Part shown: in pieces, positions 19,041-23,769 of the stretch | Layout: every line of letters begins with the position of its first letter | How positions within the stretch are numbered: the stretch's first letter is position 1 | Assembly (NCBI GenBank): GCA_027621505.1 | Contig: JAQCBK010000013.1 | Coordinates: forward strand, 1 to 40,171 | DNA from: Bacteroidota bacterium | GTDB taxonomy: Bacteria > Bacteroidota > Bacteroidia > Flavobacteriales > Flavobacteriaceae | Reading direction: 5' to 3' | Length of the DNA stretch: 40,171 nucleotides | Notes under the pieces: model-generated | What the model saw: only the letters and a program-made list of their open reading frames with translations | What the model was told of the DNA's origin: nothing | Databases searched by the model: none | Translations under genes and position numbers: made by a program

Positions 19041-20000
19041 TTGAAACATATCCCCTCAAAAAAAATCATGCTTTTCTTTAAGGGTGTGGCCATGGGTATA
19101 GCAGATTTAATGCCCGGTGTCTCAGGGGGAACCATTGCGCTTTTAATGGGGGTCTACAAAGAACTGGTAGAGTCCATTGATTCCATCAATCTAAATAACC
19201 TAAAACTCCTAAAGAATGATGGATTCACTAGCTTTTGGAAGGCCATCAACGGTAATTTTCTCAGCCTACTCTTCCTGGGGATTATCACTGCTATTTTCAC
19301 CTTCTCTTTTGCCATCGATTATCTCATGACCCACCACCCCATCCCTTTGTGGTCATTCTTTTTCGGTTTGTTGCTAGCAACGATAATAGCTCTTAAAAAT
19401 TCACTGAGCCAGTGGAGTCCTTTCAACTTTTTGTCAATGCTACTGAGTGCTGTACTGTCTTTTTTTGTTACACAAATTACCCCTAGCAATACTGAAATTG
19501 GAATGGTTTACCTCTTCATTTCAGGATTTTTCGGCATCATTGCCATGATCTTACCAGGAATATCTGGAGCCTATATCCTATTGATTCTAGGGGCCTACAG
19601 TACCGTAATAGGACTTATTAAAGATACCCTTAGGGGGTTGACGAACTTTCAAATAGACTTATTGATCCCCACGCTGACTCAGCTTATGGTATTTGTATTG
19701 GGAATTTTGACCGGTTTGAAAATTTTTTCTTTTGTCCTAAAATGGTTATTCAAGCACAAGCACGACACAACCATGGCTGTACTCATTGGATTGATGATTG
19801 GAGCATTACACAAAATATGGCCATGGCAGGAGAAGTTTGATCTGGTATTAACTAACAGCACCAAAACCATCTTACTCCCTTTATCCCCATTGGAATATCC
19901 AGGAGACCCACAATTTTTGAGCGCCTTATTCTTTTTTGTATTGGGGATGGGTTTGGTATTCCTATTGGAGAGAAACAAAAAAATAATAGCCCCAAAATGA
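19041..20000 (+). CDS. DUF368 membrane protein 1, putative undecaprenyl-phosphate translocase
   Basis: A 319-aa polytopic membrane protein with about eight to nine hydrophobic segments. The signature FFKGVAMGIADLMPGVSGGTIALLMGVYKEL at residues 12-42 is that of DUF368; a second inverted-repeat-like glycine motif reads MILPGISGAYILLILGAY near 177-194. DUF368 proteins (PopT) were recently shown to recycle the lipid carrier undecaprenyl phosphate across the inner membrane. The likely start is TTG at 19041; the next ATG at 19068 would remove nine residues only. It overlaps the second DUF368 gene by 4 nt. Confidence 0.88.
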   Translation: MKHIPSKKIMLFFKGVAMGIADLMPGVSGGTIALLMGVYKELVESIDSINLNNLKLLKNDGFTSFWKAINGNFLSLLFLGIITAIFTFSFAIDYLMTHHPIPLWSFFFGLLLATIIALKNSLSQWSPFNFLSMLLSAVLSFFVTQITPSNTEIGMVYLFISGFFGIIAMILPGISGAYILLILGAYSTVIGLIKDTLRGLTNFQIDLLIPTLTQLMVFVLGILTGLKIFSFVLKWLFKHKHDTTMAVLIGLMIGALHKIWPWQEKFDLVLTNSTKTILLPLSPLEYPGDPQFLSALFFFVLGMGLVFLLERNKKIIAPK

Positions 20001-21016
20001 ATCAAAATAAAAAAACTCTCACTGAAGACTTGATTCTTATTTTGAAGGGAATTGCCATGGGAGCGGCCAATAAAGTTCCAGGGGTATCGGGAGGTATCGT
20101 GGCTTTTGTCGCTGGATTTTATGAAGAATTGATCTATTCCCTTCAGAAAATTAACCTCAAAGCCTTTAAAATTCTCATTAAAAGAGGATGGAAACCTTTT
20201 TATCAATACACCAATGGACGTTTTTTAGTATTGCTTTTTTCGGGGGTTATCATCAGCTATTTCAGTATTTCATTGATCTTGGATTATCTCATTAAAAACT
20301 TTGAATTACAGGTTTTAGGTGTGTTTTTTGGTATGATTCTCGCTTCGTTATACTTTGTTTACTTCCAGGTAGAAAAATGGAATTTAAAAACCTTCCTTTT
20401 TTTTCTAATGGGGCTGTCCATTGGATTGATCATCATGTTCACCAAACCCTCTACCGAAAACGAAAACTTACTCTTCGTACTTTTTTGTGGCATCATCAGC
20501 GTGTCTGGAATGACACTTCCTGGATTGTCTGGGTCTTTTTTATTGCTATTACTAGGAAACTATTCGCTTTTATTGGTCGATACTGTTAATGCCATTTATT
20601 TCACACTTACGGATTTTACAAGATTCGATTTTCAATTCGTTCATGACCCCTCACGAATGAAATTACTGCAATTGGCAATGGTTTTCACCCTTGGATCTAT
20701 CACGGGCTTGGTCGTGTTTTCTAACCTTCTCAGTTTTGTATTGAAATACCACAAGAAAGTTACATTGGCCACCATCATTGGTTTTATAGCAGGTTCACTT
20801 GGAGTAATATGGCCTTGGAGGGAAAAAAGTTTTAAAATGGATGAATTGGGTCAAATTCAATACAACCAAGTAGGAAACCCTATTATTGAATCTTATGAAT
20901 ATTTTTTTCCAAACCTTCTCAAGTTCGAATTTTGGTTCATCACAATATTTATAATTTTAGGGGTATTGATCGTTACTTTATTAGAAAAATATGGAATCCA
21001 AAAAAAAGAGCATTAA
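19997..21016 (+). CDS. DUF368 membrane protein 2, putative undecaprenyl-phosphate translocase
   Basis: A 339-aa paralogue of the upstream gene with the same architecture: ILKGIAMGAANKVPGVSGGIVAFVAGFYEEL at about residues 15-45 and the second motif MTLPGLSGSFLLLLLGNY near 170-187. Here the first motif has N-K-V where the paralogue has D-L-M, the kind of change expected if the copies have diverged in substrate or coupling. The ATG overlaps the previous stop (ATGA), and its own 3' end overlaps aroE by 26 nt. Role in carrier-lipid recycling is inferred from the family. Confidence 0.88.
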   Translation: MNQNKKTLTEDLILILKGIAMGAANKVPGVSGGIVAFVAGFYEELIYSLQKINLKAFKILIKRGWKPFYQYTNGRFLVLLFSGVIISYFSISLILDYLIKNFELQVLGVFFGMILASLYFVYFQVEKWNLKTFLFFLMGLSIGLIIMFTKPSTENENLLFVLFCGIISVSGMTLPGLSGSFLLLLLGNYSLLLVDTVNAIYFTLTDFTRFDFQFVHDPSRMKLLQLAMVFTLGSITGLVVFSNLLSFVLKYHKKVTLATIIGFIAGSLGVIWPWREKSFKMDELGQIQYNQVGNPIIESYEYFFPNLLKFEFWFITIFIILGVLIVTLLEKYGIQKKEH

Positions 21017-21743
21017 ACGCTATGGCCTAATTGGAAAGAATATAGAATACTCCTTTTCTAGAGCTTACTTTAAACAAAAATTCGAGAACGAAAACTTGAA
21101 TGACTGCAGCTATGAGAATTTCGATTTGGAAAATATCAAATTACTTCCTGAAGTTTTAAAGCTGGAACATATTTCAGGGCTGAATGTTACCATTCCCTAC
21201 AAAAGGGAAGTACTGCCTTTTTTGGATACCCTCTCTCCAGCAGCACAAAAAATAAATTCGGTTAATACGATAAAGTTTGAGCCAGATGGGAGCATTAGCG
21301 GTCACAACACGGATGTTTATGGATTCCAAAAATCCCTTTTTGAGCGGGTTGCCAACCCTCCAAAAAAAGCTCTCATCATAGGCACAGGGGGTGCATCCTC
21401 TGCCATTGCATATGTATTGGAACAATATGGCATTGAATTTTCTTACGTCTCGAGAAACGAAGGTGCCAATACCTATCAATACCATGCCTTGGATGATCAA
21501 ATAATCCGTGAACACCTTTTGATTATCAATGCATCTCCTGTGGGAACATTTCCAAATATTAATCAAGCGCCAGATCTTCCCTATCAAGCGCTTACAAATA
21601 ATCACATCCTCTATGATCTCATTTATAATCCTTTAGAAACAAAATTTCTTAAAGAAGGAAAGAAAAGAAATTGTACCATCTCCAATGGATTAAAAATGCT
21701 CGAATATCAAGCGGAAAAATCTTGGGAGATTTGGAATCAATAG
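20991..21743 (+). CDS. aroE: Shikimate dehydrogenase
   Basis: AroE reduces 3-dehydroshikimate to shikimate with NADPH in aromatic amino acid synthesis. The 250-aa protein begins YGLIGKNIEYSFSRAYF, followed by LNVTIPYKREV with the catalytic lysine (about residue 70), GHNTDVYGF with the catalytic aspartate (about 106), the nucleotide-binding loop IGTGGASSAIAY near 127, and LIYNPLETKFL. The usual SxSP is SFSR here, a known flavobacterial-style change I note but cannot verify. The start codon lies inside the preceding DUF368 gene (26-nt overlap); no later start fits. Confidence 0.94.
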   Translation: MESKKKSIKRYGLIGKNIEYSFSRAYFKQKFENENLNDCSYENFDLENIKLLPEVLKLEHISGLNVTIPYKREVLPFLDTLSPAAQKINSVNTIKFEPDGSISGHNTDVYGFQKSLFERVANPPKKALIIGTGGASSAIAYVLEQYGIEFSYVSRNEGANTYQYHALDDQIIREHLLIINASPVGTFPNINQAPDLPYQALTNNHILYDLIYNPLETKFLKEGKKRNCTISNGLKMLEYQAEKSWEIWNQ

Positions 21744-21798: not shown

Positions 21799-23769
21799 AT
21801 GGCCAAAAAAACAGATAAAGCCAATGATCCTCAGGAAGAAGCAAAGGTTGATTTATCTCAATCTATTAACTCTCCTGAAGGTGACCCCGATGAAAATTTA
21901 ATCCAAGACAAGCAAGCTTCAGAGGAAAAGACATCGGAAAATGACGAAACCAACCCTAAGGAATCTGCTTCGGAAGTGACCGAAGACTATAGTAAGTTCA
22001 GTTTTGATGAATTATTGGTTGAACTTCAGAAAAGAACCAAAACCGAACAGTGGTTCAGCAATGCAAAAAACATACAGGAAATCATTCAAGCTTTCGAACT
22101 AAAGTTCAAAGCCGAAATTCAAGAGAAAAAAGAAGCCTTTATCAATGAAGGGGGAAATGAAATTGATTTTTTCTTTAGACCAGAATACAAAAATAAGTTC
22201 GATCAGTTAACTAGGGATTACAAAAAAAACAAGAGAACTTATTTTCAAGAGAGGGAACAAACCCAAAAACTAAATCTAGATCGTAAATTAGAAATCATTG
22301 AGAGTATCAAGGAACTTATCAATGTTGACGAAAACATCAATACGATTTACAAAAAATTTAAAAACCTCCAAGAAAGTTGGCATAAAACAGGCCCTGTACC
22401 CCGTTCGCAAAGCAACAATATATGGCAAACCTACAAACATCACACTGAAATATTTTATGATTTTCTTCATCTGAATCGCGAGTTAAGAGATTTGGACTTC
22501 AAACACAACTATGAAGAGAAAGTTAAGATCATAGAACAGGCGGAGGCATTGTCAAAAATTACTGACGTGCTCAAGGCCTCAAGAGATCTCAATACCCTTC
22601 ACCGACTCTGGAAGAATGATTTGGGACCAGTAGCCAAAGAACATCGGGAAGAATTGTGGTCGCGTTTTCAGGCAGCCAGTCAAATTATTCATAACAAAAG
22701 ACAAGAATTTGATAAAGAATATGATAATATCCTAGAGGATAACCTCAATAAAAAACGAGCACTTTTGAGTCAATTGGATGAGATCATCAATCAGCCTCCA
22801 AAAAATCATAATGAATGGAGAAAAACCATTGATACCTTTAACAAAATCAGAGAGCAATTTCAGTCCATAGGTCAAGTCACCAAAAAGTACAGTAAAGAAA
22901 CTTGGAGAGAATTCAGAGATAAAAGTCGTGAAATCAATCTTGAAAAAAATCAGTTTTATAAATCCCAAAAAGCTGATCAAAAAAAGAATATCGACCTCAA
23001 AAAAGCCCTCATTGATGAGGTAAAAGGGATTCTTGAAAAAGACGATTGGAGGAACTACAACAATCGGATGAAAAACATTCAAAAGGACTGGAAAGCCATC
23101 GGATTCATCCCCAAAAAATTATCCAATTTACTTTGGGAAGAATTTCGAGCACAGTGCAATCTCTATTTTGATCGCATCAAATCGGGCTACGAAAAAATTA
23201 ACGAAAGTGAATTGGAGGCCCATGAAAAGAAAGAAACATTTATCGAAGGAATCTCCAGTCTTAAAATCCCACTGAAAATGGATGATTTTATTGCATTTTT
23301 CGAAATGCAATGGAAAAATTACAATCAATTAGGGGCACTAACGGGCCATGTTATGAATAAAAGCGTTGAAGCCTTCAGAAAGGCCTTTATTTCCCTAATT
23401 AATCAGTCTGAAATGGATGGAGAAACAAAGCAAGAGGCCCAGAATCACGTCCGCATAACCTTGATCAAAGAGGATAAAAATGAATTGTCCCTTGAAATTC
23501 AAAATAGTAAAAAACGCGTTGACGAACTGAAAGGCGAAGCCCGACAATTAGAAAACAACCTGGACTACTTCTCTGATAAAAGTAACGACAACCCTCTGTT
23601 TCTTGAGGTTAACTCAAAACTCGATCAGCTCAGATCTGAAATTGAAACCCATCAAGCGCAATTGGTCAACTTCAAGAAATTTAAAAGAGAATTGGAGGCT
23701 CGAAACGAAGTAACTAAGGCTAAGGATGAAGTAGAAGACCAACAGGAGGAAGAGGAAACAGAAAATTAG
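21799..23769 (+). CDS. DUF349 repeat protein
   Basis: A 656-aa highly charged protein. Residues 1-75 are acidic and low-complexity, likely disordered. The rest contains about five DUF349 repeats, each with a W-K-x-x-G-P/I-x-P core (SWHKTGPVPRSQSN, LWKNDLGPVAKEH, DWKAIGFIPKKLSN), and a C-terminal coiled coil at about 565-640. DUF349 proteins are abundant in Bacteroidota but without settled function. It is convergent with mazG, with a single base between the two stop codons and no terminator hairpin. Confidence 0.88.
   Translation: MAKKTDKANDPQEEAKVDLSQSINSPEGDPDENLIQDKQASEEKTSENDETNPKESASEVTEDYSKFSFDELLVELQKRTKTEQWFSNAKNIQEIIQAFELKFKAEIQEKKEAFINEGGNEIDFFFRPEYKNKFDQLTRDYKKNKRTYFQEREQTQKLNLDRKLEIIESIKELINVDENINTIYKKFKNLQESWHKTGPVPRSQSNNIWQTYKHHTEIFYDFLHLNRELRDLDFKHNYEEKVKIIEQAEALSKITDVLKASRDLNTLHRLWKNDLGPVAKEHREELWSRFQAASQIIHNKRQEFDKEYDNILEDNLNKKRALLSQLDEIINQPPKNHNEWRKTIDTFNKIREQFQSIGQVTKKYSKETWREFRDKSREINLEKNQFYKSQKADQKKNIDLKKALIDEVKGILEKDDWRNYNNRMKNIQKDWKAIGFIPKKLSNLLWEEFRAQCNLYFDRIKSGYEKINESELEAHEKKETFIEGISSLKIPLKMDDFIAFFEMQWKNYNQLGALTGHVMNKSVEAFRKAFISLINQSEMDGETKQEAQNHVRITLIKEDKNELSLEIQNSKKRVDELKGEARQLENNLDYFSDKSNDNPLFLEVNSKLDQLRSEIETHQAQLVNFKKFKRELEARNEVTKAKDEVEDQQEEEETEN

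Follow-up and report, generated by a model that had tools for sequence, protein, structure and literature searches.

Two diverged DUF368 genes overlap in a conserved aroE block of Flavobacteriaceae and may encode undecaprenyl-phosphate translocases with divided labor

Why should a bacterium keep two DUF368 genes in overlapping frames, and why should the second of them run into aroE, a gene of the shikimate pathway? The question is raised by a stretch of 40,171 nt from a member of the Flavobacteriaceae (contig JAQCBK010000013.1 of assembly GCA_027621505.1; hereafter the window), in which two genes, here called A and B, lie between a gene for a TPR-repeat protein and aroE (Table 1). DUF368 proteins of Vibrio cholerae and Staphylococcus aureus are experimentally supported candidates for the translocase of undecaprenyl phosphate (C55-P; PMC9876793). 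A sequence-only reading of the window had described two diverged DUF368 genes overlapping by 4 nt, the second of which overlaps aroE by 26 nt, and the open reading frames bear out each of these points; it had also suggested that the two products might form a heterodimer or serve different conditions, and had left the coupling to aroE unexplained. The reading that we favor, with moderate confidence and from comparison of sequences, is that A and B are two co-translated C55-P translocases that divide the labor between them.

Table 1. Features of the DUF368 locus, with positions counted from the first nucleotide of the window
Feature	Position	Strand	Basis
TPR-repeat protein, 452 aa	17626..18984	+	Pfam TPR families
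DUF368 copy A, acidic (D) type, 319 aa, TTG start	19041..20000	+	PF04018, 259.5 bits
Asp22 codon, motif 1 (GIADLMPGVSGGT) of A	19104..19106	+	sequence; D in 101/101 readable A rows
Ala168 codon, motif 2 (AMILPGISG) of A	19542..19544	+	Ala in 141/141 D/E-type rows
DUF368 copy B, asparagine (N) type, 339 aa	19997..21016	+	PF04018, 239.3 bits
Asn25 codon, motif 1 (GAANKVPGVSGGI) of B	20069..20071	+	sequence; N in 103/103 B rows
Gly171 codon, motif 2 (GMTLPGLSG) of B	20507..20509	+	Gly in 118/119 N-type rows
aroE, shikimate dehydrogenase, 250 aa, start codon within B	20991..21743	+	Pfam Shikimate_dh_N
DUF349 protein, 656 aa, downstream end of conserved block	21799..23769	+	Pfam DUF349, 5 stretches

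The overlap of A and B is of the ATGA type, and the two frames are presumably co-translated; A has an alternative in-frame ATG at 19068. The overlap of B with aroE is needed, because any later canonical start in the aroE frame would cost the product its YGLIG N-terminus. In a Pfam profile search both A and B scored above the PF04018 cut-off of 26 bits, and they are 35% identical over 273 residues, so that neither is a recent near-identical duplicate of the other and the description of the pair as diverged holds. No third PF04018 gene was found in the genome of the window, a 1.85-Mb assembly that is 86% complete. The best match of B among named relatives is to a Flavobacteriaceae assembly, at 79% identity, in a comparison from which records of its own genome may be left out. 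AroE scored 69.8 bits against Shikimate_dh_N (cut-off, 27) and 169.9 against TIGR00507, below 200.2 but in a match of nearly full length. Promoter-like sites at the locus numbered 11 versus 14.4 expected, counted with a sigma-70 consensus that may not suit Bacteroidota, where a poor fit is expected, and terminator-like sites numbered 8 versus 3.5 expected (standard deviation, 2.5); the minus strand carries five of these, and three fall within B. We place no transcript boundary on the strength of these counts.

The sequence-only reading had left it to a phylogeny to say whether the two copies parted long ago or recently, and the trees speak for an old split. The more careful tree was built from 81 selected rows; it omits, among others, L127 and L141, which are on long branches, and the single-copy genes of families f14, f22, f24, f30, f34, f36, f40, f45, and f52. 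There the 36 N-type rows of the order formed one clade with support of 100/100. The clade stayed together after both motif regions had been removed (SH-aLRT, 100; 35 rows). A grouping of the N-type rows with only the D-type rows of the family, as recent duplication within the family would have it, was rejected (AU p, 0.004; quick tree), and a grouping with all D-type rows of the order was marginal (AU p, 0.038, at a cost of 40 log units); Halomonas and the single gene of family f60 (L189), whose placement on a branch of 2.24 is unsure, had been dropped from the later tree and from these tests. Because the within-family clade is rejected and the N-type rows form one clade, the split between A and B is older than the family. 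It could go back to a duplication at about the base of the order, or to a still older one, after which lineages lost one or other copy; alternatively, an N-type gene could have been gained from elsewhere. One single DUF368 gene from outside the order (L150, family f30) is also of N type, and in a first tree, built from 112 of 244 rows, it sat outside the B clade, so that the change from D to N seems to have happened more than once; this row was absent from the test that gave 100/100.

Two residues mark the split. In motif 1, three residues before PGVSGG, all 101 readable A rows have Asp and all 103 B rows have Asn, the latter mostly as ANKVPGVSGG; these counts include the duplicate contigs L155, L157, and L161, and the rows L096, L153, and L154 listed as single are pair loci in which one copy is short or broken. 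The sequence-only reading had singled out the first-motif difference as worth mapping, and its constancy across loci supports that judgment. In motif 2, the residue before MILPG is Ala in 141/141 D/E-type rows, and the N-type rows have Gly in 118/119. The clean separation of Asp22 from Asn25 in the residue comparison arises by construction, the rows having been divided by that residue, and independent support for the division comes from gene position and from the tree built without the motif columns. Rows from Vibrio, Photobacterium, Salinivibrio, Halomonas, Roseburia, and Haladaptatus are acidic at the motif 1 position, and in a Latilactobacillus row the residue is neither acidic nor Asn. By this residue A falls with the D/E-type, Vibrio-like DUF368 proteins and B does not. 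The PGxSG residues are common to at least 97% of rows. The single N-type gene of f60, strongly diverged, reads ANIIPGISGST at motif 1 and still has aroE downstream of it.

AlphaFold models (mean pLDDT, 87.8 for A and 86.8 for B) predict multi-helix proteins with two helix-breaking PGxSG motifs. In the model of A, one PGxSG loop sits between helices 5-23 and 29-35 and the other between helices 155-170 and 176-182. In the models, the Asp/Asn and Ala/Gly residues come just ahead of these loops, one in each half of the protein. No relative of solved structure was found by sequence for A or B at E values up to 1, and a Foldseek search with the model of A only gave no match at E 0.001. A VIA-align comparison with the same model placed ZIP transporters first (Z, 6.8) and parts of BacA at a Z of about 4, values at background level that we set aside.

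In family membership and sequence, the pair shares some features with VCA0040-type proteins of V. cholerae and departs from them in others. Like the VCA0040 type (PMC9876793), A and B belong to PF04018, both exceeding its cut-off, and A resembles the Vibrio-group rows, which stand in for VCA0040 in this comparison, in its acidic motif ADxxPGVSGGT, which reads GAADVVPGVSGGTIAF in Vibrio, Photobacterium, and Salinivibrio. The flavobacterial locus differs from the VCA0040 type in its pair of diverged copies with overlapping reading frames, in the Asn and Gly that B carries at the motif positions, and in the scores of both proteins, which fall short of the NCBIfam equivalog cut-offs. Against the polyprenyl-phosphate transporter model NF052564, A scored 275.9 and B 225.7 bits (cut-off, 400). 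Against NF052563, the model of PopT, which we take to be the DUF368 protein of the Gram-positive work, the scores were 117.9 and 85.1, well under the cut-off of 400 in matches that span most of the model. As neither protein reaches these cut-offs, the substrate could differ.

The genomic setting bears on what that substrate may be. BacA, which produces C55-P on the outside, was found in the genome of the window. The DedA/UptA C55-P flippases (COG0586; PMC10127716) have the same proposed job as A and B and belong to a different Pfam family. A search for the DedA family (PF09335) gave no match in the genome of the window, whose assembly is 86% complete so that a gene could be missed, and in the genus as a whole 19/22 genomes had none and 3/22 had matches at E values of 1e-12 to 1e-10; the control for this search was detected in 13/14 genomes. 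By these searches, the DUF368 pair is the only known candidate for C55-P return in the genome of the window. This reading does not extend to the whole order, because 115/154 of its DUF368-bearing genomes have a DedA-domain protein of some kind; 32/154 have a match at E 1e-14 or better. Across the order sample, 115 genomes had both families, 39 DUF368 only, 228 DedA only, and 11 neither (Fisher p, 4e-9, with kinship ignored and with families f2 and f70 and genus g2 making up most of the DUF368-free side). The trend, for which all DedA matches were counted together whatever their COG, agrees with the mutual exclusion of COG0586 and COG2035 reported in PMC10127716.

One possibility is that A does the C55-P job and that B, having lost the acidic residue, moves a different substrate, such as a phospholipid, a glycolipid carrier, or some polyprenyl phosphate other than C55-P. 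The fixed changes from Asp to Asn and from Ala to Gly would fit such a shift, as would the lower score of B against the Vibrio-named equivalog model. However, both types share the PGxSG loops, and in family f65, where none of the 13 DUF368-bearing genomes had a DedA match and the seven genomes read had only N-type genes, this explanation would leave the cell with no known C55-P translocase. The f65 genomes suggest instead that the N type alone suffices, and we consider a different substrate for B rather unlikely.

Alternatively, the pair might be plain redundancy or a matter of dosage, with D and N types functionally equivalent, and here the distribution of copies is informative. PF04018 was matched in 130 of the 392 genomes sampled from the phylum. 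A single match was found in 108 of the 130 (two of them under the PF04018 cut-off), which upholds the expectation that one copy is the usual state; two full copies were found in 21, every one in the family of the window (f1), and one genome had two fragments on separate contigs. In the genus of the window, 21/22 genomes had PF04018 matches, and every one of these showed at least part of both genes; one B is interrupted by stops and another truncated at a contig end. In a sample of the order Flavobacteriales, 154/393 genomes had a match; among the 65 such genomes of f1, 61 had two copies and four had one. Outside genera g2 and g204, every DUF368-bearing genome sampled from the family had both copies. 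The pair is an old, conserved habit of the family and no local oddity. Genomes of g2 have one DUF368 gene or, in the majority, none, so that the family can do without two copies and the pair is dispensable where DedA is kept.

The g2 genomes speak for redundancy. Equivalence of the two types agrees poorly with the retention of both copies elsewhere in the family, with motif differences fixed over the whole clade, and with the different rates at which the copies change: over 98 loci the mean pairwise identity was 64.7% for B versus 53.8% for A (means that include duplicate contigs L155, L157, and L161). We judge mere redundancy distinctly unlikely. As B is the better conserved of the two, it is no decaying copy, and that idea was set aside. 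Within the genus of the window, too, A changes faster than B: in 15 rows, of which three come from duplicate contigs, mean pairwise identity was 60.9% for A and 72.1% for B.

Genomes outside the family show how far the two types are tied to each other. Nine of them in the order sample had two PF04018 matches. Adjacent D- and N-type genes were found in f59, f64, f68 (two genomes), and f2; in f58 they lay on separate contigs in both genomes (L191/L175 and L193/L174), where a tandem may have been split apart and where in one case adjacency could be masked by a contig end. One f65 genome had two N-type copies, and one f61 genome had two fragments. Only N-type genes were present in all 17 genomes read from the small-genome families f60, f62, f63, f65, and f69 (16 with one gene and one with two), and only D-type genes in all 11 single-copy genomes of the order whose motif was read (f61, f66, f67, g2, and g204), some of these single-type genomes being drafts 90 to 99% complete in any one of which a copy could have been missed.

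Where the two genes do occur together, they are closely packed, more consistently than chance would give. Pair loci were compared at 101 places, which are not an unbiased sample because 80 came from a search seeded with conserved words of B. The A-B gap, computed from the first possible start codon so that overlaps are upper bounds, had a median of -1 nt and lay within -70 to +60 nt in 97/101 loci, counts that omit L153 (B with stops), L154 (B truncated where its contig stops), and L155, L157, and L161 (the same contigs as L038, L036, and L034). In Lacinutrix himadriensis (L096), the frame of A is only about 242 aa long and is followed by a 281-nt gap before B, and this copy of A is possibly damaged or mis-sequenced. 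At L153 (genome G407), A is open and B is broken together with several neighboring genes, so that an assembly fault or sequencing error is the probable cause. An obligate form of the heterodimer that the sequence-only reading had suggested, which the conserved order, the tight spacing, and the prevalence of two copies in the family might encourage, is very unlikely because N-only and D-only genomes coexist in the order, and the separate contigs of f58 also speak against it. An optional complex of A and B is possible.

These comparisons favor a model in which an inherited TPR-DUF368-aroE-DUF349 block contains A and B, two old paralogs of the DUF368 C55-P translocase whose reading frames overlap. 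A would have retained the acidic residue of the Vibrio-group proteins, and B would represent the Flavobacteriales clade with Asn at motif 1 and Gly for Ala at motif 2. Each copy would be able to act alone. Where both are kept, as is the habit of the family, a division of labor is implied, most likely through differing dependence on ions or pH, and a division by pH or ion gradient would be compatible with Asp in one protein and Asn in the other. We infer C55-P translocation by both proteins, the divided labor, and the link of the Asp/Asn difference to ions or pH from the comparisons described above. A literature search, made mostly among papers open without subscription, found no paper on the flavobacterial pair or its adjacency to aroE and no activity data for any flavobacterial DUF368 copy.

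A further, tentative step, to which we give only a modest chance, would make the N-type clade an acid-free C55-P translocase, lacking a coupling to protons or sodium that the D type would have. The Flavobacteriaceae pair would then be a coupled and an uncoupled flippase for use under different pH or gradients, and the small-genome relatives would live on the uncoupled form alone. The idea argues by analogy from DedA proteins, in which acidic residues at the tip of a re-entrant helix are tied to transport driven by the proton motive force (PMC10127716), and from the pH and Na+ dependence reported in the V. cholerae work, which leaves energetics and directionality to future study (PMC9876793). 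A natural pair with Asp versus Asn at a helix-breaking motif, together with relatives that have a single type, makes the powering of a C55-P translocase directly testable.

The overlap with aroE loses most of its mystery when single DUF368 genes are considered. At the pair loci, the B-aroE gap had a median of -26 nt, overlaps again being upper bounds. Of the 100 loci in which aroE was seen, 87 have it overlapping B, and of the 98 in which aroE and DUF349 were both in view, 90 have DUF349 starting no more than 200 nt from aroE. Yet aroE also directly followed DUF368 in 10/11 D-type and 17/17 N-type single-type genomes read from the order, and a single DUF368 gene directly preceded aroE in families f5 (2/5 loci), f7, and f8, so a link specific to the pair was set aside. 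Because single DUF368 genes share these neighbors, the block either predates the second copy or does not depend on it. As the adjacency occurs without B, inherited operon order is the best account of the overlap and is probably all that the apparent coupling to the shikimate pathway, left unexplained in the sequence-only reading, amounts to. In families f16, f22, f24, and f34, the single DUF368 gene has neither TPR nor aroE beside it.

The upstream TPR gene, which the sequence-only reading did not mention, is a more widely conserved neighbor than aroE. It was seen at 95 pair loci, at 90 of which it ended no more than 200 nt from A, and a TPR gene lies closely upstream of single DUF368 genes in f12, f14, f30, f36, f45, f52, and Parabacteroides (including L142, L148, L150, L151, L152, L133, and L196). 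It is thus the most widely conserved neighbor of DUF368 in the block, well beyond the order, and its product is a candidate functional partner of DUF368.
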